Program-made: the position numbers and the translations under genes
Shown here: piece after piece, positions 1,976 to 20,200 of the stretch
Layout: each line of letters starts with the position of its first letter
Numbering within the stretch: position 1 is the first letter of the stretch
Virus record (IMG/VR): IMGVR_UViG_3300025674_000513
Location: 1-20,200 of that record
Direction: 5' to 3' (one strand)
DNA length: 20,200 bases
From: a virus
The notes under the pieces: generated by a model
Told to the model about the DNA's origin: nothing
The model's input: the letters and a program-made list of their open reading frames with translations, nothing else
The model's database searches: none

Positions 1976-2242
1976 CTACTGTGGCCCATTATCCATTTCT
2001 GATTCTCTTGCTAGTCTTTCTGCTCCTGTTTCTAGATTAGCAGCCATAACTATTTCATCATCAGTTCCTGATACTGTACCGCCTTGATTTCTAATTCTTG
2101 TTATTTCAGATTCAACAACTCTTTTTATGACTTTTCTACATTTAGTTTTGATAGCATTCTCAATCCATTGTTGTGGTGATACACAATCATGTGCTAATGC
2201 TTTATCTTCAGCATCTGTTAGTGTAATTGTATAATCTGGCAT
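1976..2242 (-). CDS. Small conserved phage protein of unknown function
   Basis: This 88-aa soluble protein begins MPDYTITLTDAEDKALAHD, a start I recognise from small proteins encoded among structural genes of marine phages; no function is known to me. The C-terminal half is acidic and probably helical (residues 55-88, with AANLETGAERLARESE). There is no signal peptide or membrane segment. It has AGGAAA seven bases before the ATG (GGAAAAATTATG) and lies 12 bases after the C1q-like gene and 16 bases before gp17, so it should be co-transcribed with both. Its position between an adhesin and the terminase suggests it travelled with the adhesin as a two-gene insert. This is inference from position. 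Confidence 0.8.
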   Translation of the reverse strand: MPDYTITLTDAEDKALAHDCVSPQQWIENAIKTKCRKVIKRVVESEITRIRNQGGTVSGTDDEIVMAANLETGAERLARESEMDNGPQ

Positions 2243-2254
2243 AATTTTTCCTTT

Positions 2255-2848
2255 CTATCCTATTAAAGCAACACCAAAATGAGAATAACCACCATTCATA
2301 TGAACAGTACCAAAAGTCCTCTCTATTGTTATATAATCACTAGCATCTAAATAAACACAAGCACCAGCTGTTTGTCCTTCATAATAATTTTGATTGCCTT
2401 CCCTGCCAACTCTTGCAATGCGTGTTGAACCGTTAATAATTATATCTGCAGCTCCTGAAGTTCCTGTTGTAGAAAAAAATTGAACAGTAACAATATAAAA
2501 ACCATCAACTGGAGCGGTAAATGTATTACTACTATAATCACTTCCAGCATCTCGAATTTCATTATCATAATAGGCTAGTATATTACCAGAGGTATAATTT
2601 ACAGTACCTGCAGCGGCTCTCCTCATATAAACACCTGTTTGATTAGGTTTTAAAACTCTTCCTGAACTATCAACTTGAATACTATTGGCAGTAGCACTTG
2701 AATCAATATTCAAAGGATAATTTGCACCACTACCAACAACTGTACCTGATGCAGTTGGAACTGTTAAATTTTTAAGATTAGTAGCATCTACATTTGTACT
2801 AGTTACAGTTGTGGTAGTTACTCCTGTACTTGTAATGGTTGTTGGCAT
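2255..2848 (-). CDS. C1q-like adhesin / short fibre protein inserted between gp16 and gp17
   Basis: This 197-aa protein has a Thr/Ser/Val-rich N-terminal stalk (about residues 1-60), a linker, and a C-terminal domain of about 125 residues with the layout of a C1q/TNF-like jelly roll. The key stretches are SSNTFTAPVDGFYIVTVQF (about 105-123), INGSTRIARVGREG (about 138-151), CVYLDASDYITI (about 164-175) and the final GGYSHFGVALIG. C1q-like heads trimerise and act as ligand-binding tips in many phage fibres. The ATG directly follows the gp16 stop codon (TAAATG), with AAAGGA inside the gp16 end, so translation is probably coupled. The domain call is by pattern and could be another jelly-roll family. 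In T4 and most relatives genes 16 and 17 are adjacent, so this is an accessory gene in the packaging operon. Confidence 0.75.
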   Translation of the reverse strand: MPTTITSTGVTTTTVTSTNVDATNLKNLTVPTASGTVVGSGANYPLNIDSSATANSIQVDSSGRVLKPNQTGVYMRRAAAGTVNYTSGNILAYYDNEIRDAGSDYSSNTFTAPVDGFYIVTVQFFSTTGTSGAADIIINGSTRIARVGREGNQNYYEGQTAGACVYLDASDYITIERTFGTVHMNGGYSHFGVALIG

Positions 2849-8185: not shown

Positions 8186-11100
8186 TTAATTCCTTCTTCC
8201 AGGCGGTTCTGTTGGAACACTAAACGCTGAAGTATATCTTGCAACACCTGTTGTCATTCTAAATCCAAAAATTTCTCCAATAAGACCTCTAGTATAACCA
8301 TCATGCCAATGACTAAAGTGCATACCACCATTCCAATCAGTTATAGTTCCAGTAAATGTAAATGTTTCTGCAAGAACACCATTCACAAATTGATAACCAG
8401 TTGTTCCTGTTCTTACAACTGCATAATGTGTCCATTTATTTAAACCAACTTGAACACTACCATATGTGTTGCCTGGGTCTGTTCCTACTTTTGTCCAACT
8501 TCCACTAACTGTATTTCTATAAGATACACCAGTATAACCTGATGGATTAATTGCAAGTGCAAGCGCTTGTACTCCAGTAACATTACAAATAAATGTATCA
8601 CCATATGTTCCACTATTAACTGCATCTCGTTTGAACCAGAAGTCAACAGTAAAATCTTGATCTCTTAAATTCATCACTTCATTATTTTCAATTTTTATAA
8701 AATCTGTATCACCTCTAAATTTTAAAGTTCCACTAATGTCGTCAGGGAATGACATATTTGTATTATGGTCAACTTCTTTTGTTAAACTTACATTACCAGT
8801 AGCAGTTACATTAACTGGATATGCACCTGCATCTGCAACAGTAGATGCAGAACTTGTTATTAATAATTGAGTACCACTTATAGCAGTTAATGCTGAAGTT
8901 GGTGGTGTGAACGCAGATGTATATACAGCAGTTCCTACAACAAGTCTTACATCTGTTATGTATCCATTGAAATCATAACCATTAACAGCTCTACCAATAG
9001 TTAATGGGTTATCGTTAAAATTCTGTGTGTCAGCAGTAGCACCTCCAACCTGAACTCCATCTTGCCACAAATAAATATTACCACTACTTCTTGTAACTGC
9101 AAGATGATGCCATGTATGTTGAGTTAAATCTGTTGAAGAAACTGTTGTTGTAATATTTTGAGAACCTGCTTGAAATTGCCACTTTTGTGTACTTGCATTT
9201 AATCTAAAGAAATAATCTGTATCAGAACCTACATTAGCATAAGTTGTTACAAAGTGACCATAGTTGGTAAACGCATTTACTTTTACCCATGCTTCAAGGG
9301 TAAAGTCTGTGTTTGTTCCTATCGCACGATAAGTATTTGTTGCTACTGTATGATAATCACCACTACCATCATAAAAAGAAGCATATCTTAAATGTACATA
9401 ATTTGCATCAGTAAGTGTTGCATTACCATTAAAAGTAGGATGATATTCTTTACCTGTTCTGTCCTGCAAAGCATAATTTGCAAAATTCATTAGTAGTGAT
9501 GTATTTGTAATTGCAGATAATTTTGAAGTTGGTGGTGTAAATGCAGATGTGTATACAGCAGTTCCTTTTACAAATCTATAATCTGAAACATAACCAAATG
9601 TAGGTTGTCCTACTGGAGCACCGTTTTCTCCGATGCCTAATGCAGTTGCTGTATTTGAAATTGTTGCTGGACAAGTTGCAGTTGCAGTTGTATTTGCAGC
9701 TACACCATTTACCCAAAATTTTAATGTACCTGAATCGTTAGAAACTGCAATGTGATTCCACTCATGAGTATAGATAGTGTTATGAACATTAATCCATGAT
9801 GTTCCAGTCCACATTTCAAGTCTACCAGCAGGTTGACCACTTCTTCCAACTGCAATTGCAAAACCATTGTATGGATTACCATTAGTATAATTACCTGTTA
9901 TAAAATTAGGGCCACTTGACAATAAGTAACACCAAAATTCAATTGTAAAATCATCACTATTTGTGATTTGTATTGGTGCGGCTGAAGTAATTTGTAAATA
10001 ATCACCTGAATTATCAAAATATACAGAACCACCTTGAGTTGCAGGAATGTATTCTGTTTGCATTGCAGTAAAATCATCAGGATAATAATTTCTTACTTGA
10101 GGAACACTATTAAATGTAAGTGAGTATGCGTTACTACTGTTATCTTTTTTCTCATTTGATTGACAAGTTAGTAGTAATGTATTTGCATCTGAAGTAAATG
10201 GTGATGTTGGAACTGTATATGAAGAACCACTATATCTCGCAATATCACTACTTCTTAAATTTGAAATATGACCTTTGAATAAAGCATCAGTATCTGCTAC
10301 ACCATAACCTCTACCTATATACATAGTTTCACCACCAGAAGCCGTACCCCATGCAACACCACCATAACTAGTTATTGATGTGGCATCTCTTGACCCATTA
10401 ATATAAAAATATATGGTAGTTCCATCTCTTACTAGTGCAATATGATTCCATGTGTTTGGAGTTAATGTAGTTGTAGAATCTGAATATTGTGCAGAACCAG
10501 TATAGTAATAGTATCTTAATTTATGAGCATTTGTAATACCAAAGTTTATGTATGTACCACCAACACAACCAAAAGAGGCCGCAGTATATACTTGTGATGG
10601 TGTTGGTTGGTCACCATCTAATTTAACAAATAATTCATAAGTACCATAATCACTTCCACCATCTAACCATTCCATAGGTTGAGGTATAACACCTGAAGAT
10701 GTATATCTTATATCGTCATCAGCACCATCAAAATATACAGATTTATAACCATTTGGAAAATAGTATGGACTAAATGATACTTGTACAGTATCACCTGTTT
10801 TAGTTATATTTGATGTATAACTGTTAGGGCCAGTATCTACAAATGAATCATTATCACCAGTAACACCAGTACCATCATAAAGTGCAACAACACTTGCAAA
10901 ATTTGTATCAGTAAATGCAAATGATAAACTAAATTGACTTGCTGATGTTGCTGTATTAACTCCATCACTTGCAGTAAATGTTATAGTAAATTGTCCTGCA
11001 TAATTTTGATTAGTTGTTGGTGTTATTGTAAATACATTACTTGATTGAGAAACTGTTGCAGTTGTACCACCCCCATTTGTTAAACTACCAGTTGTAACTG

Positions 11101-12073
11101 CAAAACTCCAAGTAATTGGAAGTTCTTCAGGGTCTGTTGCAACTAAAGTTAATACTGTTGCAGTACCATCTGTATTTAATGTAACTGAACCAGGCGCTCC
11201 TGATGTAATTGATGGACTATTGTTTATAAGTGCAATGTTATACCAACCAGTTCCAGTCCAAAGATATAATCTATTTGTTGCAGAAACAAATGCAGTTGTT
11301 CCAGCACTAACACCAGACAAAGGTAAATCACTTACATTTGTGTAAGCTGCTGTTGATGGTGTTGAATTATCACTATTAGCAGCTGCTTGAAATGTTGAAG
11401 TAGAAATTGAACCACCAGTAGTGTCTACTGGTTTTAATTTACCATCTTGTGATAAAACAATTCCTTTTGGATTTGGAACACTTGCAGTTGCTCTAGGAAT
11501 AAATGCAATCGCACCAGTTGTTGGGTCTGTTTGCATACGAGCACCACCAAGAAAGAATGTTCCACCAGATAAATGTAATTCTGCCCATTGTTTTGATGCA
11601 GAACCTAAATCTCTAGTTGCATCTGCATCTGGTATAATGTCTTGTGCAACTGCACTTAAATCAACAGAACCACCTCCTCCACCACCAGAACCAGTAGATA
11701 GAGAAATGATTTGAACAGTATCAGTTACTAATGCACCTGTTTGTAGAACAACAGATGTTCCATTTGATGCAGTATAATCGTCAGTATCTTCGAGTAGAAT
11801 ACCATTTTGAAAGACTAGAATATTTCCAGTAGTATATGATAAACTATTTCCGTTATCATCATTACCACTAAAAGTTGTTTGTGATGCAGTTGCTGTGTAA
11901 ACAAATTCTGTTACACCTGAAACATTATTACCAACTTCGACAACACCTGTTGATGCACGAACATATATTTTCTTATCAGCAGTATTGACTGCAACTTCAC
12001 CAACAGCTAAATCACTCGTTGTTGGAACTGAATTTGCAGTTTCAGATTTTTTTAATTTAATTACTGTAGCCAT
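8186..12073 (-). CDS. Giant tail fibre / adhesin with four LamG-like lectin domains
   Basis: At 1295 aa this is the largest gene. Residues 1-50 resemble the N-terminal attachment domain of phage tropism-determinant fibres (IKLKKSETANSVP, LAVGEVAVNTADKKIYV). Residues 57-125 are the YTATASQTTF module shared with the 609-aa fibre. A polyglycine hinge follows at 128-135. Residues 285-386 look like a cadherin/Ig-like domain (VTLNTDGTATVLTLVATDPE). Then come four concanavalin/LamG-like jelly rolls: about 445-640, 685-885, 895-1090 and 1115-1290. Each has an opening FDGSGDY-like strand, a WNHIAVxR-like core and, near the end, GTAVYTSAFTPPTS or a variant. Such domains bind carbohydrate, so a role in host-surface recognition is likely but inferred. 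AGAGG precedes the ATG. Confidence 0.88.
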   Translation of the reverse strand: MATVIKLKKSETANSVPTTSDLAVGEVAVNTADKKIYVRASTGVVEVGNNVSGVTEFVYTATASQTTFSGNDDNGNSLSYTTGNILVFQNGILLEDTDDYTASNGTSVVLQTGALVTDTVQIISLSTGSGGGGGGSVDLSAVAQDIIPDADATRDLGSASKQWAELHLSGGTFFLGGARMQTDPTTGAIAFIPRATASVPNPKGIVLSQDGKLKPVDTTGGSISTSTFQAAANSDNSTPSTAAYTNVSDLPLSGVSAGTTAFVSATNRLYLWTGTGWYNIALINNSPSITSGAPGSVTLNTDGTATVLTLVATDPEELPITWSFAVTTGSLTNGGGTTATVSQSSNVFTITPTTNQNYAGQFTITFTASDGVNTATSASQFSLSFAFTDTNFASVVALYDGTGVTGDNDSFVDTGPNSYTSNITKTGDTVQVSFSPYYFPNGYKSVYFDGADDDIRYTSSGVIPQPMEWLDGGSDYGTYELFVKLDGDQPTPSQVYTAASFGCVGGTYINFGITNAHKLRYYYYTGSAQYSDSTTTLTPNTWNHIALVRDGTTIYFYINGSRDATSITSYGGVAWGTASGGETMYIGRGYGVADTDALFKGHISNLRSSDIARYSGSSYTVPTSPFTSDANTLLLTCQSNEKKDNSSNAYSLTFNSVPQVRNYYPDDFTAMQTEYIPATQGGSVYFDNSGDYLQITSAAPIQITNSDDFTIEFWCYLLSSGPNFITGNYTNGNPYNGFAIAVGRSGQPAGRLEMWTGTSWINVHNTIYTHEWNHIAVSNDSGTLKFWVNGVAANTTATATCPATISNTATALGIGENGAPVGQPTFGYVSDYRFVKGTAVYTSAFTPPTSKLSAITNTSLLMNFANYALQDRTGKEYHPTFNGNATLTDANYVHLRYASFYDGSGDYHTVATNTYRAIGTNTDFTLEAWVKVNAFTNYGHFVTTYANVGSDTDYFFRLNASTQKWQFQAGSQNITTTVSSTDLTQHTWHHLAVTRSSGNIYLWQDGVQVGGATADTQNFNDNPLTIGRAVNGYDFNGYITDVRLVVGTAVYTSAFTPPTSALTAISGTQLLITSSASTVADAGAYPVNVTATGNVSLTKEVDHNTNMSFPDDISGTLKFRGDTDFIKIENNEVMNLRDQDFTVDFWFKRDAVNSGTYGDTFICNVTGVQALALAINPSGYTGVSYRNTVSGSWTKVGTDPGNTYGSVQVGLNKWTHYAVVRTGTTGYQFVNGVLAETFTFTGTITDWNGGMHFSHWHDGYTRGLIGEIFGFRMTTGVARYTSAFSVPTEPPGRRN
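8895..8936 (-). repeat. LamG-end DNA repeat, copy 1
   Basis: A 42-base block coding GTAVYTSAFTPPTS at the end of the third LamG-like domain. It matches the copy at 9525-9566 in 39 of 42 bases. Confidence 0.85.
9525..9566 (-). repeat. LamG-end DNA repeat, copy 2
   Basis: The 42-base counterpart at the end of the second LamG-like domain, 39 of 42 bases identical to 8895-8936. Confidence 0.85.
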
Positions 12074-14026: not shown

Positions 14027-14365
14027 TTAACTCCTAGAAACGCTTGGATTGACAGTTGCAATACCTTCAACTACTCTTGTTTTTGTAGCAGAAGCATCTG
14101 TTATGAGAACATCATAAACATATCTTCCTGAATCAAGACTAGCTGTTTGTGTATCTGTTAATGAGATTGTGATTTGACCTGTGGTTCTATCAGATGCAAA
14201 AGTAGATGTAAAACTTGTAGATGTTGTAGATGCATAAGTTTTACGAATTTGAGCAAGTGCAGTATAACCAGTTAGATCAAGAGCAGAGCCCGTTGAATCA
14301 TTAATAGTTACTGTAGTTGTGAATGTTGCACCTTGGTCAATGAATATATTTGAAACAGTTGCCAT
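14027..14365 (-). CDS. Small virion protein with a BppU-like immunoglobulin fold
   Basis: This 112-aa protein has the pattern MATVSNIFIDQGATFTTTVT, then DLTGYTALAQIRKTYAS and GRYVYDVLITDASATKTRVV. This is a small beta-sandwich similar in layout to the N-terminal domain of siphophage baseplate upper proteins (BppU) and widely present beside fibre genes of marine phages. I chose the ATG at 14365 over an in-frame TTG at 14374 because AGGAGA (14375-14380) abuts the TTG directly but is nine bases from the ATG. It is the first gene after tandem late promoters. It probably attaches fibres to the baseplate, inferred from family and neighbours. Confidence in the fold is moderate, in the gene itself high. 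Confidence 0.82.
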   Translation of the reverse strand: MATVSNIFIDQGATFTTTVTINDSTGSALDLTGYTALAQIRKTYASTTSTSFTSTFASDRTTGQITISLTDTQTASLDSGRYVYDVLITDASATKTRVVEGIATVNPSVSRS

Positions 14366-14374
14366 TAAATACAA

Positions 14375-14416: not shown

Positions 14417-14443
14417 AAAAAAAGATTGGTATTAATTAAACCA
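14417..14443 (-). terminator. Possible weak intrinsic terminator after the oxygenase gene
   Basis: Read on the minus strand, TGGT and ACCA flank a nine-base loop and are followed, after ATC, by seven Ts (14417-14423). The four-base-pair stem overlaps the end of the oxygenase gene. It is weak by stem length, but its place just before two late promoters is where a unit boundary would be expected. Confidence 0.35.
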
Positions 14444-14995
14444 TGTGACTATTGAATATCTAGTTCCCATCTTTACAGGCAATACACCATGTGGGTACAT
14501 AAAATTAGAAGGAAACATAAGAGCGCTTCCTTTTTCAAGATTTAATTTATAATCATCATCAAAAAAACTAAACTCTCCACCTTTATAATTATCATTAAGT
14601 GATAAAGTTAATGATATTGTTCTAGGTGTGTTAGCATGAGAATCTAGGTGTCTTTTGTAAAAATTATTACAATCGTATTTTAACAACCTATATTCTTCAC
14701 TACTACTAACATAATCTTGCACATCTAAATGTTGTTCAATATATCTACCTAAACAATTACTCATAATATTATATAAAGGTTTTTGAAACATAGAGTTAGT
14801 CAATAATAACTCACTACAATTTCTCGTAGTTTCCTTTACTTTAGATTTATTACTTTTTAAATCACCCTGTATTCTAGCTTCTTCCCATTCATTTGAATAT
14901 CTGTAATAGTTAACTATTTCATCACATAAAACTCTTGGTACAACATTTTTAAAAACATGAATATAATTTTTTAAACTTCTCCATTGACTAAACAT
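14432..14995 (-). CDS. 2-oxoglutarate/Fe(II)-dependent oxygenase, prolyl-4-hydroxylase-like
   Basis: This 187-aa single-domain enzyme would use 2-oxoglutarate, O2 and Fe(II) to hydroxylate a substrate. The double-stranded beta-helix core shows HLD at 116-118 (Fe ligands H116 and D118), the downstream histidine H169 in FMYPHGV, and R179 in MGTRYSIVTWF, which should bind the 2OG carboxylate. GGEFSFFDDD (139-148) and LEKGSALMFPS (153-163) are typical flanking strands. Such enzymes are common in T4-like cyanophages and pelagiphages and are usually called prolyl 4-hydroxylases, though the substrate is rarely known. Its gene lies among fibre genes, so a virion protein substrate is plausible but unproven. 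The ATG is preceded by GAAAGA. Confidence 0.88.
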   Translation of the reverse strand: MFSQWRSLKNYIHVFKNVVPRVLCDEIVNYYRYSNEWEEARIQGDLKSNKSKVKETTRNCSELLLTNSMFQKPLYNIMSNCLGRYIEQHLDVQDYVSSSEEYRLLKYDCNNFYKRHLDSHANTPRTISLTLSLNDNYKGGEFSFFDDDYKLNLEKGSALMFPSNFMYPHGVLPVKMGTRYSIVTWFN

Positions 14996-16371: not shown

Positions 16372-16542
16372 TTAGTCTGCATCCTGTATTGTTAATTCAC
16401 CTGCTTCTACTTGTCGCATGATTTCATCATAGTGCCTGTTGCCTGGTATTAAAGGAACTGAACAAACCTCACCATCTATTGTTGCTCTAATACTACAAGG
16501 TTCATTGTTCCATTGTGTATGTTGTGCGTTAGTTATTTCCAT
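16372..16542 (-). CDS. Small conserved protein C2 of the duplicated fibre cassette
   Basis: This 56-aa gene is short but well supported. Its ATG at 16542 is preceded by GGAG with good spacing, and it has a paralogue at 18195-18371. The protein begins MEITNAQHTQW and ends with PGNRHYDEIMRQVEAGELTI followed by QDAD. The block GNRHYDEIMRQVEAG is identical in the paralogue. I recognise this kind of short protein as one that follows fibre genes in marine phages, but no function is known to me. An assembly-chaperone role for the preceding fibre would fit its place but is only inference. At DNA level 45 of 48 bases (16400-16447) match the paralogue. Confidence 0.85.
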   Translation of the reverse strand: MEITNAQHTQWNNEPCSIRATIDGEVCSVPLIPGNRHYDEIMRQVEAGELTIQDAD

Positions 16543-16550
16543 ATTAACTC

Positions 16551-17669
16551 CTATAATTCTGCATCATATTTCATAGTTACACCTCTTACATCACAACCTC
16601 TTCCAACCACACTTGGTGTTCCAGTTGTATCTCTAAAAAATAAAACTCTAGCACTAAAAGGGTTTATATTTTGCGTTGTATTCTGACTAGAAATAGTAGA
16701 ATCATATTGTCCATCAGAAACAGTACCACCTGATATCCAAAAAATTGTAGGCCCTTGACGCATCCTTACAGGGAATTGTACGATAGAAAGAGGTATATTA
16801 GCACTACCACCACCCATAGTACCTGCATATGCAAAAACATCTTGTACAAAGTATCTATGACATTTTCTCAAAACAGTTTCATATGGCTCAAACTCGAATC
16901 CTGAAGCGTTTTCTCCAACCTCTAGCTGACAGCCTGTAATATATAATTCGTTACTTGTTGAATCTGCTAGGTTTACAACACCTACTGCTCTATTTGCATT
17001 GACACTTGACGCCCATGATGTATTTAATGTTCCTGATGTGTAATCAGAACCAGCACCAAGCCAAAATAAAACATTTAAACTTTGGTCATTATCATTATCT
17101 AATACTCCAGATGTATCTCCATCAAAGATCAACTCAACTTTTTGCCATGTTGATGCACTACTAATAGTGTATGATTTACTAATAGACCTAGAATTATCAA
17201 TATCTTCTAACTCAATAATATAAGTTCCAGTTTTATTAGACTTTATCCAAAAACTTAATGTAAGTTTTTTAGCACTTGACGAGCCTTTGAGTAAGTGCTG
17301 GAGGTTTTGACCTTCAATTCTTTGTTCAAAAACAATAAAATCACCAGCAGCTGGACTTGCATCTGCTGTAGTGCAATCCCATTTTGTAGAGTAACCAAAA
17401 CCTTGTCCTGATGGAACATCTGTTGACCTTGATACGGTAAAAGCACCTTGATTACCTACTCTTGTTTTCCATCTATCAACTGTTGAATAAGTATCTGTGC
17501 TAACTGAAGTTGAGGTACTTCTTTGCCATATATTCATTCCACCATTGATGAGTAAATTTCTATTAACAATATTACTGTTAATAATAGCAACATTACCAGA
17601 TGAATCTATCTTTATATCATCACTATCTGATTGTAATCCTCTAAATCCACCTGTCTTTACAAAACTCAT
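16551..17669 (-). CDS. Fibre protein B2 with INGGMNIWQR motif and carbohydrate-binding-like domain
   Basis: This 372-aa paralogue of 18380-19459 has NLLINGGMNIWQR at about 38-50, a family start I know from phage tail-fibre proteins. A jelly-roll domain of about 200 residues follows (LTLSFWIKSNKTGTYIIELE, NLADSTSNELYITGCQLEVG), of the carbohydrate-binding-module type. A conserved FEFEPYETVLRKCHRYFVQ lies near 258-276. After residue 277 it diverges from its paralogue except for the last residues (GVTMKYDAEL). It has a long, different N-terminus (SFVKTGGFRGLQSDSDDIK). GGA lies six bases before the ATG. It is probably a receptor-binding or side-fibre protein. Confidence 0.85.
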   Translation of the reverse strand: MSFVKTGGFRGLQSDSDDIKIDSSGNVAIINSNIVNRNLLINGGMNIWQRSTSTSVSTDTYSTVDRWKTRVGNQGAFTVSRSTDVPSGQGFGYSTKWDCTTADASPAAGDFIVFEQRIEGQNLQHLLKGSSSAKKLTLSFWIKSNKTGTYIIELEDIDNSRSISKSYTISSASTWQKVELIFDGDTSGVLDNDNDQSLNVLFWLGAGSDYTSGTLNTSWASSVNANRAVGVVNLADSTSNELYITGCQLEVGENASGFEFEPYETVLRKCHRYFVQDVFAYAGTMGGGSANIPLSIVQFPVRMRQGPTIFWISGGTVSDGQYDSTISSQNTTQNINPFSARVLFFRDTTGTPSVVGRGCDVRGVTMKYDAEL

Positions 17670-17678
17670 ATTTTATTC

Positions 17679-18191
17679 CTACGCTGACGGTATTGCTAAT
17701 ATTGAACAAGAACCTCTATCGTTTGGATCAACACTTGCATTGCTAGTTAAGGTTACAGTCCATGTACCAGCATCTAATGTTTGTATTCCATACCCAGGCG
17801 GACTTGCTTTATGTGATGCCGATTCATTTGTAAACCAAAGTATTTGTGCGATAGTACCAATAGTAGTAACTGCAAGAGTTAAAGTCATAGTACCTGCAGC
17901 ATTTTTAAATGAAGAACCACCAAATGAAAACAAACATTTACTTCTTGTACTTAAAGTAAATGTTCCTGATGCACCTGATGACAAATCTGCATTATTAAAA
18001 GGAACAAAAACATCTATTCCAGTTGCACCAGTTGCTAACATAGTTGCTGATACTGTACCTGTATCACCAGTAGTAATAATATCACCAGCAACATCTGGTA
18101 AATTGAATGTTCGATCTGTGTTGGTATTTGGAGCCTGAATAGTTAATGTACCTGACCCTGAAGCGTTTCCTTGAATTTTTACATTGCTCAC
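17679..18191 (-). CDS. Short fibre / head-domain protein A2 of the duplicated cassette (GTG start)
   Basis: This 170-aa paralogue of 19461-20042 is similar only in the first 45 residues (SNVKIQGNASGSGTLTIQAP, NTDRTFNLPDVAGDI), which is probably the attachment part. The rest is a beta-rich domain without a family I recognise. The start is GTG at 18191, three bases after the stop of C1; the paralogue aligns from its ATG, which supports this start. Ending 9 bases before B2, it is probably co-translated with it. Confidence 0.78.
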   Translation of the reverse strand: MSNVKIQGNASGSGTLTIQAPNTNTDRTFNLPDVAGDIITTGDTGTVSATMLATGATGIDVFVPFNNADLSSGASGTFTLSTRSKCLFSFGGSSFKNAAGTMTLTLAVTTIGTIAQILWFTNESASHKASPPGYGIQTLDAGTWTVTLTSNASVDPNDRGSCSILAIPSA

Positions 18192-18194
18192 TTG

Positions 18195-18371
18195 TTACTC
18201 TGCCTCTGCGATTGTAAGTGTACCTGCTTCAACTTGTCGCATAATTTCATCATAGTGTCTGTTGCCTGGTTGTAGTGAAACTGCCCAAACTTCTCCATTT
18301 ATTGTTGCAATAATTCCAGCATTTTCATTTTCACCATCATGTCTATAATATTTTGCGTTTGTTATTTCCAT
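18195..18371 (-). CDS. Small conserved protein C1 of the duplicated fibre cassette
   Basis: This 58-aa protein begins MEITNAKYYRHDGENENAG and ends PGNRHYDEIMRQVEAGTLTI followed by AEAE. It is a paralogue of 16372-16542, differing mostly in the N-terminal third. AGGAA lies just before the ATG and the gene starts eight bases after the B1 stop. The function is unknown; the family follows fibre genes in marine phages. Confidence 0.85.
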   Translation of the reverse strand: MEITNAKYYRHDGENENAGIIATINGEVWAVSLQPGNRHYDEIMRQVEAGTLTIAEAE

Positions 18372-18379
18372 TTTTTTCC

Positions 18380-19459
18380 TTATAGTTCTGCGTCAAATTT
18401 CATGTTAACATTTCTTACTACTGTTCCTTCACCTATAACTCCATTTCCACTTGACAAGCTGTAAACTAAACTAGCACCTGATGTCGCATTAGAATAGACA
18501 GGAAGTCCAGAATATAAACTAGAAATATTTAGGTCAGTTTGTCTACTACGAGCTACACCACCAGATATGTAATTTACATCTGGGTTATCTCTCATTGTAA
18601 CAGGGTAAGTGACACTTACGAAAGCAAGTTCAGCTGTGCCACCAATCCACATTCCTGATAGGTTATAGTCATTTTGATGAAAATACCTTTGACATTTTCT
18701 TAATACAGTTTCATATGGCTCGAACTCAAAATCTGTAGCAACACTTCCAACTTCTAATTGACACCCTGTCATATACCACTCATTACTTGTAGAATCTGCT
18801 AGATTAACTTGACCTACTGCTCTATTAGCACTAGTAATTGTTCCCCAAGATGTTTGTAATGTTCCTGATGTAAAGTTAGAACCTGCACCTAACCACCATT
18901 GAACATATAAAGATGCTGCGTTATCGTTGTCTAGTGTTCCTGTTGTATCACCTTCAAAGGTAATCGTTTTCTTTTCCCATGTTGACGCACTATCTATAGT
19001 ATAAGATTGACATATGTTTCTTGAGTTATCTTGATCAAATAATTCTATAATGTAAGTTCCAGTTTTGTTTGATTTTACCCAAAAGCTCAAAGTAATTTTT
19101 TTAGCACTTGAAGTTCCTTTAAGTAAATGCTGGAGATTTTGACCTTCAATTCTTTGATTTATAATTATACCATCCCCAGCAGCTGGAGATGCATCAGCAA
19201 TTGTGCAATCCATTTTTAAACTATACCCAAACCCTTGTGCAGATGGCACATCTGTTGACCTAGATTGTGTCCAAGTTCCCATAGAAGTAAAAGAGGTAAG
19301 CCACCTATCTGCTGTTCGATAAGCAGAGGTAGTAATGCCTGGCTCTGTTGTGCCTCTTTGCCATATGTTCATACCACCATTGATGAGTAAATTTTTATTT
19401 GTAAAAACTAAATTCTCACCAACTGCGTTTTGTAATGTATCTACTTTTAATGTACTCAT
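18380..19459 (-). CDS. Fibre protein B1 with INGGMNIWQR motif and carbohydrate-binding-like domain
   Basis: This 359-aa protein has LLINGGMNIWQRG at about 24-36, then a conserved block with STDVPSAQGFGYS, INQRIEGQNLQHLLKG and ITLSFWVKSNKTGTYIIEL, and a closing FEFEPYETVLRKCQRYF near 244-260. Its jelly-roll layout suggests carbohydrate binding. I chose the ATG at 19459 over an in-frame GTG at 19471. The ATG has GGAG at six-base spacing (19466-19469), follows the A1 stop by one base and aligns better with phage family members; the GTG would overlap A1 with no ribosome site. The C-terminal 95 residues differ from B2. Confidence 0.86.
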   Translation of the reverse strand: MSTLKVDTLQNAVGENLVFTNKNLLINGGMNIWQRGTTEPGITTSAYRTADRWLTSFTSMGTWTQSRSTDVPSAQGFGYSLKMDCTIADASPAAGDGIIINQRIEGQNLQHLLKGTSSAKKITLSFWVKSNKTGTYIIELFDQDNSRNICQSYTIDSASTWEKKTITFEGDTTGTLDNDNAASLYVQWWLGAGSNFTSGTLQTSWGTITSANRAVGQVNLADSTSNEWYMTGCQLEVGSVATDFEFEPYETVLRKCQRYFHQNDYNLSGMWIGGTAELAFVSVTYPVTMRDNPDVNYISGGVARSRQTDLNISSLYSGLPVYSNATSGASLVYSLSSGNGVIGEGTVVRNVNMKFDAEL

Positions 19460-19460
19460 A

Positions 19461-20042
19461 TTACGCTCCACTCACCATAAAACAACTCGCATACATATCA
19501 GCAAAAGTCAAACCTCCCACATCAGAATCCATACCCCAAAACTCGACATAGTCAGTAGTACCATTCATGTATGCAACACCACTTGTCGTTATATTAAGAA
19601 CATTCTCGTCATCTTCACCTACATCAGAAGTCCAATTTTCTGCGAATGAAACATAATTTGATGCAGTAGGTATTGTTTGGTTTTTTACTATTCCAGCTTT
19701 AATCCAATCCATATTGTTAAGACGAAATTGTAAGTGAAAAAAATAATATCCTGCAAGAGTTGGTACAATTCTCTCGTTTGATGAATTAAAAATTGATGCA
19801 GTATCTACATGATTACCACTATTCTCATTCCATTTTAATCTTACCCAAGAACCATTAACAGAAGTTGTTGAAGCACCTTGTAATTGCACTACTGGAACTT
19901 TAGGCATAGTGGTTGATTCTGTTGTTAAAACAGTTCCAGTTTCATCTGGTAAACTAAATGTTCGATTAGTGTTACTATTTGGAGCATCTATCGTGAACAC
20001 CCCTGTACCACTAGCGTTTGGACTCAATTTTATTTGTGACAT
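19461..20042 (-). CDS. Short fibre / C1q-like head protein A1 of the duplicated cassette
   Basis: This 193-aa protein opens MSQIKLSPNASGTGVFTIDA then NTNRTFSLPDETGTVLTT (1-41), shared with A2. The C-terminal part, about 45-193, has the C1q/TNF-like outline: RIVPTLAGYYFFHLQFRLNN (about 90-109) and TDYVEFWGMDSDVG (about 162-175). This would trimerise as a globular fibre tip. AGGAA lies nine bases upstream of the ATG. Because A2 has a different C-terminal domain, the pair probably shares an attachment site and presents different tips. Confidence 0.78.
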   Translation of the reverse strand: MSQIKLSPNASGTGVFTIDAPNSNTNRTFSLPDETGTVLTTESTTMPKVPVVQLQGASTTSVNGSWVRLKWNENSGNHVDTASIFNSSNERIVPTLAGYYFFHLQFRLNNMDWIKAGIVKNQTIPTASNYVSFAENWTSDVGEDDENVLNITTSGVAYMNGTTDYVEFWGMDSDVGGLTFADMYASCFMVSGA

Positions 20043-20048
20043 ATTTTA

Positions 20049-20200
20049 TTATTCCTTTGGATATTTTGCTTTAATAGGGTCAATCATTTCTGTTTTCCAA
20101 GCTTCAACCCCATCATCATAAATTTTTTCTAATTGCTTTTCCCAACTTGGATACTCACTTGCTCTTTGTCTTTGTTATTCATTAGCATCATATTCAGCTT
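20049..20200 (-). pseudogene. 3' end of a small fibre-associated gene with an in-frame stop
   Basis: Reading into the window from the right edge on the minus strand gives AEYDANE, then TAA at 20175-20177, then QRQRASEYPSWEKQLEKI and YDDGVEAWKTEMIDPIKAKY, ending PKE with a stop at 20049. The part after the stop strongly resembles the end of a small conserved protein that follows fibre genes in marine phages (EYPSWEKQLxxIYDDGxxAWK). In those proteins the position of the TAA is, as I remember, a tyrosine. No start codon lies just after the stop in this frame. So the gene looks broken by a nonsense change, or the base is a sequencing error. The gene runs out of the window. Confidence 0.6.

Follow-up and report, generated by a model that had tools for sequence, protein, structure and literature searches.

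The viral record IMGVR_UViG_3300025674_000513 of IMG/VR, a linear fragment of 20,200 nucleotides (nt) taken here in its entirety (the window), carries six minus-strand open reading frames (ORFs) lying back to back in the order A2-B2-C2-A1-B1-C1. These genes probably constitute an adhesin array in which the tips are interchangeable and every adhesin has a minimal cognate chaperone, within a known host-recognition island. B would be the adhesin, a conserved β-sandwich resembling a carbohydrate-binding module (CBM) and bearing a hypervariable tip of ~100 residues. C would most likely be a minimal fiber chaperone or cap, for folding or protection of the tip, with an N-terminal half that fits the tip and a C-terminal half that fits the conserved part, and A would be an optional neighboring head protein with a shared N-terminal anchor.

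A sequence-only reading of the window had described two A-B-C sets in the same order with similarity of the A proteins confined to their N-termini, and both descriptions hold. Local alignment scores for A1/A2, B1/B2, and C1/C2 are 138, 1047, and 167, as against shuffle maxima of 58, 80, and 38, respectively; the C proteins align over their whole length, and the A alignment covers residues 1–44 only, the heads being divergent. DNA homology between the cassettes consists of exactly three blocks: 43 nt at the start of A (18092–18134 vs 19943–19985; 86%), 720 nt in B (the body modules of Table 1; 73%), which begins at residue 35 and stops with the final base of the CxRYF codons, and 224 nt (16372–16589 vs 18195–18418; 75%) comprising the last dozen B codons (..KYDAEL / ..KFDAEL) and all of C. 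The same reading had the end of B differing between the copies. DNA homology does break at CxRYF, yet the last ~98 residues are still 27–52% identical by 30-residue window, and the final dozen codons are homologous.

Both B proteins fit the PHROG 4492 tail fiber profile (Table 1). Modeling of B1 with AlphaFold2 and a Foldseek search with the body reveal a fold resembling CBM4 and CBM16 modules (E ~1e-6 to 1e-5; TM (template modeling) score by target 0.6–0.7; region with a predicted local distance difference test (pLDDT) >90), as well as CBM11 modules and chains of phage CBA120 tailspike 4 and of the Pa193 and E217 baseplates/fibers. The modeled body is a CBM4/CBM16-like β-sandwich and a putative glycan binder. 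The tip of B1 was poorly modeled; it presumably represents the receptor-binding part.

Comparison of 204 non-redundant B-C pairs reveals that the bodies belong to a single family, with matches at E<1e-4 in 97.8% of pairs, and that the tips match in just 2.6%. Even where body similarity exceeds 0.9, 64% of pairs have unrelated tips; variation of the tip is independent of the body before it. The borders of this variation were located in 40 independent pairs whose bodies are similar and whose tips are unrelated. The homologous segment starts at −735 to −705 nt in 69% of pairs and ends within −6 to +12 nt of the CxRYF end in 34 of 39, and homology is back in 35 of 40, in two clusters, one just before the C start and the other in the back half of C. 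The window's own B copies break at the same CxRYF border. The earlier proposal that the cassette is a tip-swapping site is borne out.

The same borders are found in cultured isolates. Synechococcus phages MA01/S-H34 and S-N03 share 91.5% identity up to +5 nt, carry unrelated tips (246 vs 339 nt), and regain 96% identity starting 19 nt ahead of the B stop codon. Isolates MEP401 and MEP402, compared with each other, show the same borders, and the paralogues compared within S-H34 have the same CxRYF/DAEL edges around unrelated tips. Phage S-H34 (L089) contains six B-related genes in one fiber island, without C.

The recurrent unit is B-C, and A is optional. In loci that were not selected on C, 168 of the 184 non-redundant B genes are directly followed by C, which is encoded 0–10 nt downstream, often at a spacing of 2 nt, or overlaps B. 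The A N-terminal motif is a separate upstream gene in 29 of 159 cases, is fused onto B in 12, and was undetected in the rest; it also occurs inside long fiber proteins. A strict A-B-C unit was rejected, A being optional. A heads and A N-termini recombine independently, as in L010, where an A1-type head sits on the N-terminus that L005 pairs with an A2-type head. As had been expected, copy number differs among related phages: among loci that extend 5 kb or more upstream from the conserved fiber gene at 14027–14374, and with obvious duplicates merged, about nine possess no B at that place, about four possess one, about eleven possess two, and one possesses three. The two units of the window are a minimum, the contig edge lying 158 nt upstream of A2. 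Five contigs (L052, L053, L074, L075, and L076) display a fixed B-B-C-B architecture, in which three B genes accompany a single C.

For whole C, a partial Mantel test on the 204 pairs gave weak correlations with both tip and body (0.08–0.10; permutation p 0.002). C was split at its conserved middle, a division chosen after this weak result. The N-terminal half scores 0.70 with related tips vs 0.13–0.19 with unrelated tips, whatever the body and even at body similarities >0.85, where the median for unrelated tips is 0.16. The score of the C-terminal half climbs with body similarity from 0.33 to about 0.6–0.67, even with unrelated tips. When 15 independent pairs with related tips were set against body-matched controls, the excess was positive for the N-terminal half in 13 (p=0.0037) and weak for the C-terminal half (p=0.06). 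As judged from these sequence scores, the N-terminal half of C follows the tip and the C-terminal half follows the B body, a double dissociation that fits an adaptor with a front half matching the tip. The suggestion that C is a dedicated partner is in keeping both with this co-variation and with the position of C after B.

C proteins are 56–62 residues in length, and C1 is modeled as a single β-β-β-α domain. They are similar to the N-terminal part of S-2L gp51 ("tail fiber assembly-like protein") and of Kaagvere gp42, longer proteins that are annotated as, or sited like, fiber-assembly proteins. In L043, directly after a B gene, C is fused to a Phage_tail_APC domain (PF16778, 2e-14); no PF16778 match was found in C1, C2, and 19 relatives. 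Phages Melnitz and Melnitz-3 are near-isogenic (flanks 99.7–100%), and in the latter B and C are replaced by another fiber and a Phage_tail_APC chaperone, the right edge of the replacement falling at the C stop codon. Farther downstream there is a second swapped block (around 8736–11230 of L340, Melnitz, as compared with L338, Melnitz-3); two separate fiber blocks thus differ between these otherwise near-identical phages. Assignment of C to a Pfam family or a solved fold was rejected, there being no match in Pfam and no significant fold in the PDB. PHROG matches are to families of unknown function only. The best Foldseek match of C1 among solved structures (E=0.28) is not a chaperone, and its chemokine-like matches (E ≥ 0.28) were taken as chance topology; neither a sequence match nor a significant fold match of C to any solved structure was found.

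The arrangement is nonetheless reminiscent of Pam3 gp24/gp25 and of the Mu/P2-type Tfa systems, where a fiber gene is followed by a chaperone gene (PMC9608196), the position that C takes in the 168 cases above. The N-terminal β domain of Pam3 gp25 (residues 1–55) embraces the fiber tip, and C is about the size of this ~55-residue domain; in the same chaperones the N-terminal domain is variable and the C-terminal domain conserved (PMC9608196), as are the corresponding halves of C. Unlike gp25 (PMC9608196), C has no C-terminal helical trimerization domain, and the model of C1 does not reproduce the combination of N-terminal β and C-terminal helical trimerization domains. Alteromonas phages V22 (gp26/gp27) and A5 (gp8/gp9) offer a similar case of a marine fiber and its cognate downstream chaperone being exchanged between unrelated phages (PMC7289586, PMC10579305). 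Their chaperones, at 195–239 amino acid residues and with DUF4376, are unlike the small C, and whole-module exchange has been described for them, as opposed to exchange of a tip and half a chaperone here (PMC7289586, PMC10579305). C is therefore not filed as a member of Tfa or APC; we propose, by analogy, that it works like one.

The main rival to an adaptor as the cause of the co-variation is simple linkage, in which C would be an unrelated small tail gene, and the tip and the N-terminal half of C would travel together as neighbors between crossovers in conserved flanks. This is a serious contender, albeit an unlikely one. The fusion of C to Phage_tail_APC in L043, the APC chaperone occupying the slot of C in Melnitz-3, and the rarity of junctions that keep the N-terminal half of C with an unrelated tip (the median of 0.16 at bodies >0.85) argue against it. 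In favor of linkage, what is exchanged runs without a break from the tip into the front half of C, and the body and the back half of C stay with the recipient, as a plain double crossover would give. Other observations weigh against the array of adhesins with cognate chaperones. The Kyanoviridae S-H34, MA01, and S-N03 swap tips without a C gene, and C is consequently not universally required. In 2 of the 15 matched pairs with related tips, the N-terminal halves of C do not match. C, as a putative chaperone, has no Pfam or significant PDB fold match. On a small panel, host range was the same for four Melnitz variants that differ in their fiber regions (PMC9004378), and the trees referred to below may be distorted by recombination inside the B body.

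The sequence-only reading had further proposed a tandem duplication of the whole three-gene cassette. A recent duplication in place, with tips diverging later, would account for the same gene order occurring twice, for C being homologous over its whole length, and for the related A N-termini. However, approximately unbiased (AU) tests reject a B1+B2 clade (p-AU 0.00025 and 0.0014), B1 is closer to the B genes of other contigs (76% identity over 239 residues) than to B2 (~59% over 364 residues), and most units are without A. B1 and B2 do not form a sister pair, membership of A is not obligatory, and recent duplication, rejected on the AU tests, is very improbable. Separate arrival of the two sets, which that reading had named as evidence against itself, is seen in part, namely in the B bodies; but the close relative L006/L007, whose flanking genes are mostly 81–99% identical to those of the window, has the same double A-B-C order in the same place. 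Its B bodies are just 66–70% identical to those of the window, and its A proteins share only the first 38–53 residues with the window's, with one exception; one of them gives a weak 36% match to A2 (residues 1–123). Positional orthology between the window and L006 (first with first, second with second) gave p values of 0.16 and 0.06, which speak neither for nor against it. The pair may be an old one blurred by exchange or may result from two separate arrivals, and the data are compatible with either. As to the exchange itself, metagenome assembly chimeras formed at the conserved B body could mimic it, and this module is an inter-genome repeat of a type that misleads assemblers. Because complete cultured isolates (S-N03 vs MA01/S-H34, MEP401 vs MEP402) and the S-H34 paralogues show the same edges, these are not an assembly artifact; moreover, body identities are usually 73–98%, not 100%, and chimeras, ruled out by the isolates, are an exceedingly improbable cause. 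A diversity-generating retroelement (DGR) mutating the C-terminal variable region of B has a negligible chance of being responsible: the variable region does lie at the 3′-end of a fiber gene, as in known DGR targets, but the tips are unrelated and of unequal length rather than adenine-substituted copies of a template, and neither a reverse transcriptase nor a template repeat was recognized among the genes scanned in this 20 kb fragment.

Phages probably diversify the unit by recombination between conserved flanks, in which the tip is replaced, in most cases along with the front half of C. The 5′ flank would be the body up to CxRYF; on the 3′ side, the back half of C or the DAEL/stop/C-start region would serve. 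With two units per genome, one virion lineage could present both specificities simultaneously or rotate between them, and swapping of the tip and the front half of C may be a way of changing which bacteria are recognized. A bolder version, which we surmise to be quite improbable, is that a dedicated tip-exchange system (site-specific or short-homology recombination), common to kyanovirids, HMO-2011-like, and T7-like marine phages, has its edges at the CxRYF and DAEL/C borders; in that case C would be a bipartite adaptor with a front half serving as each tip's matching key, and tip plus half-C a plug-in specificity cartridge.

Hypervariable fibers, cognate fiber chaperones, and host-recognition islands are already known, as is the variability of marine-phage tail fibers at the gene level. 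In a limited search of the open-access literature, we found no constant-body/exchangeable-tip borders common to several phage families, no stand-alone mini-chaperone, and no split co-variation. The present data provide a rule at the level of domains, with borders that can be measured: the body is constant, whereas the tip of ~100 residues and one half of the tiny partner are exchangeable. Should the tip be the part that binds the receptor, a segment of ~300 nt could serve for reading and testing specificity in phages of OM43, SAR116, SAR11, and cyanobacteria. This double co-variation leads to a concrete prediction of which half of C touches the tip.

Table 1. Genes and modules of the two cassettes in the window.
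Feature	Position	Strand	Size	Description
A2	19461..20042	-	193 aa	Shared N-terminal motif (residues 1–44) and variable head, C1q-like by eye only
B2	18380..19456	-	358 aa	Putative adhesin, jelly-roll body and tip; phrog_4492 tail fiber, 2e-61
B2 conserved body module	18680..19399	-	720 nt	Exact end at CxRYF codons
B2 tip	18383..18679	-	~99 residues	Terminal FDAEL
C2	18195..18371	-	58 aa	Putative mini-chaperone
A1	17679..18191	-	170 aa	GTG start; shared N-terminal motif and head unlike that of A2
B1	16551..17669	-	372 aa	Putative adhesin, CBM4/CBM16-like β-sandwich body (model) and tip; phrog_4492, 3e-55
B1 conserved body module	16848..17564	-		Residues 35–274, exact end at CxRYF codons
B1 tip	16554..16847	-	98 residues	Terminal YDAEL; low-confidence model
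C1	16372..16542	-	56 aa	Putative mini-chaperone, β-β-β-α model, pLDDT 94.6

The window's TerL is 79% identical to that of Methylophilales phage Melnitz, and profile matches reveal T4-like neighbors (terminase small subunit, head closure Hc2, neck adaptor Ad2, and sheath stabilizer); the conserved packaging and neck genes are those of a Melnitz-like kyanovirid. The Melnitz-like Methylophilales phages (Kyanoviridae; PMC9004378) are the nearest cultured relatives found and share the B-C unit and the same downstream fiber genes, differing in that they have just one B-C unit, and Melnitz-3 none. The region is likely the tail-fiber end of the host-recognition island of a T4-like marine phage. The cassettes lie beyond the neck genes with other fiber genes intervening, a placement corresponding to the pelagimyophage host-recognition cluster, which is described as a hypervariable island upstream of the neck gene gp14, between VrlC and gp14 (PMC7029224). 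Carbohydrate-binding, C1q, and fiber-assembly genes are enriched in hypervariable metaviromic islands (PMC3909814), and the window is alike in island and gene content. In the passages considered, both sources describe genes or islands, without domain-level borders such as those reported here.

A2 and three relatives gave no Pfam C1q match. Directly upstream of A2, positions 20043–20200 (minus strand) hold the end of another gene (..ASEYPSWEKQLEKIYDDGVEAWKTEMIDPIKAKYPKE) with an in-frame TAA close to the contig edge; this may reflect a broken gene or an error at the end of the assembly. Between the small and large terminase genes (~1976–2848, minus strand) are a small ORF and a C1q-like protein (2255–2848; Pfam C1q E=0.0017, under the curated cut-off). 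Homologues of both are adjacent to each other beside B-C units in L011, which suggests a second mobile head-plus-partner pair. The 1295 aa protein encoded at 8186–12073 (minus strand) is rich in LamG/concanavalin, and its residues 1–128 match a separate 149 aa gene of L006 (14293–14742), followed there by a 1862 aa gene with no match among the window proteins; the comparison reads as another constant-N-terminus, variable-head pattern. A 2OG-Fe(II) (2-oxoglutarate/iron) oxygenase gene lies amid the fiber genes at 14432–14995 (minus strand) and is absent from the corresponding position in L006; the B-B-C-B arrays of L052, L053, and L075 are likewise followed by oxygenase-looking genes.

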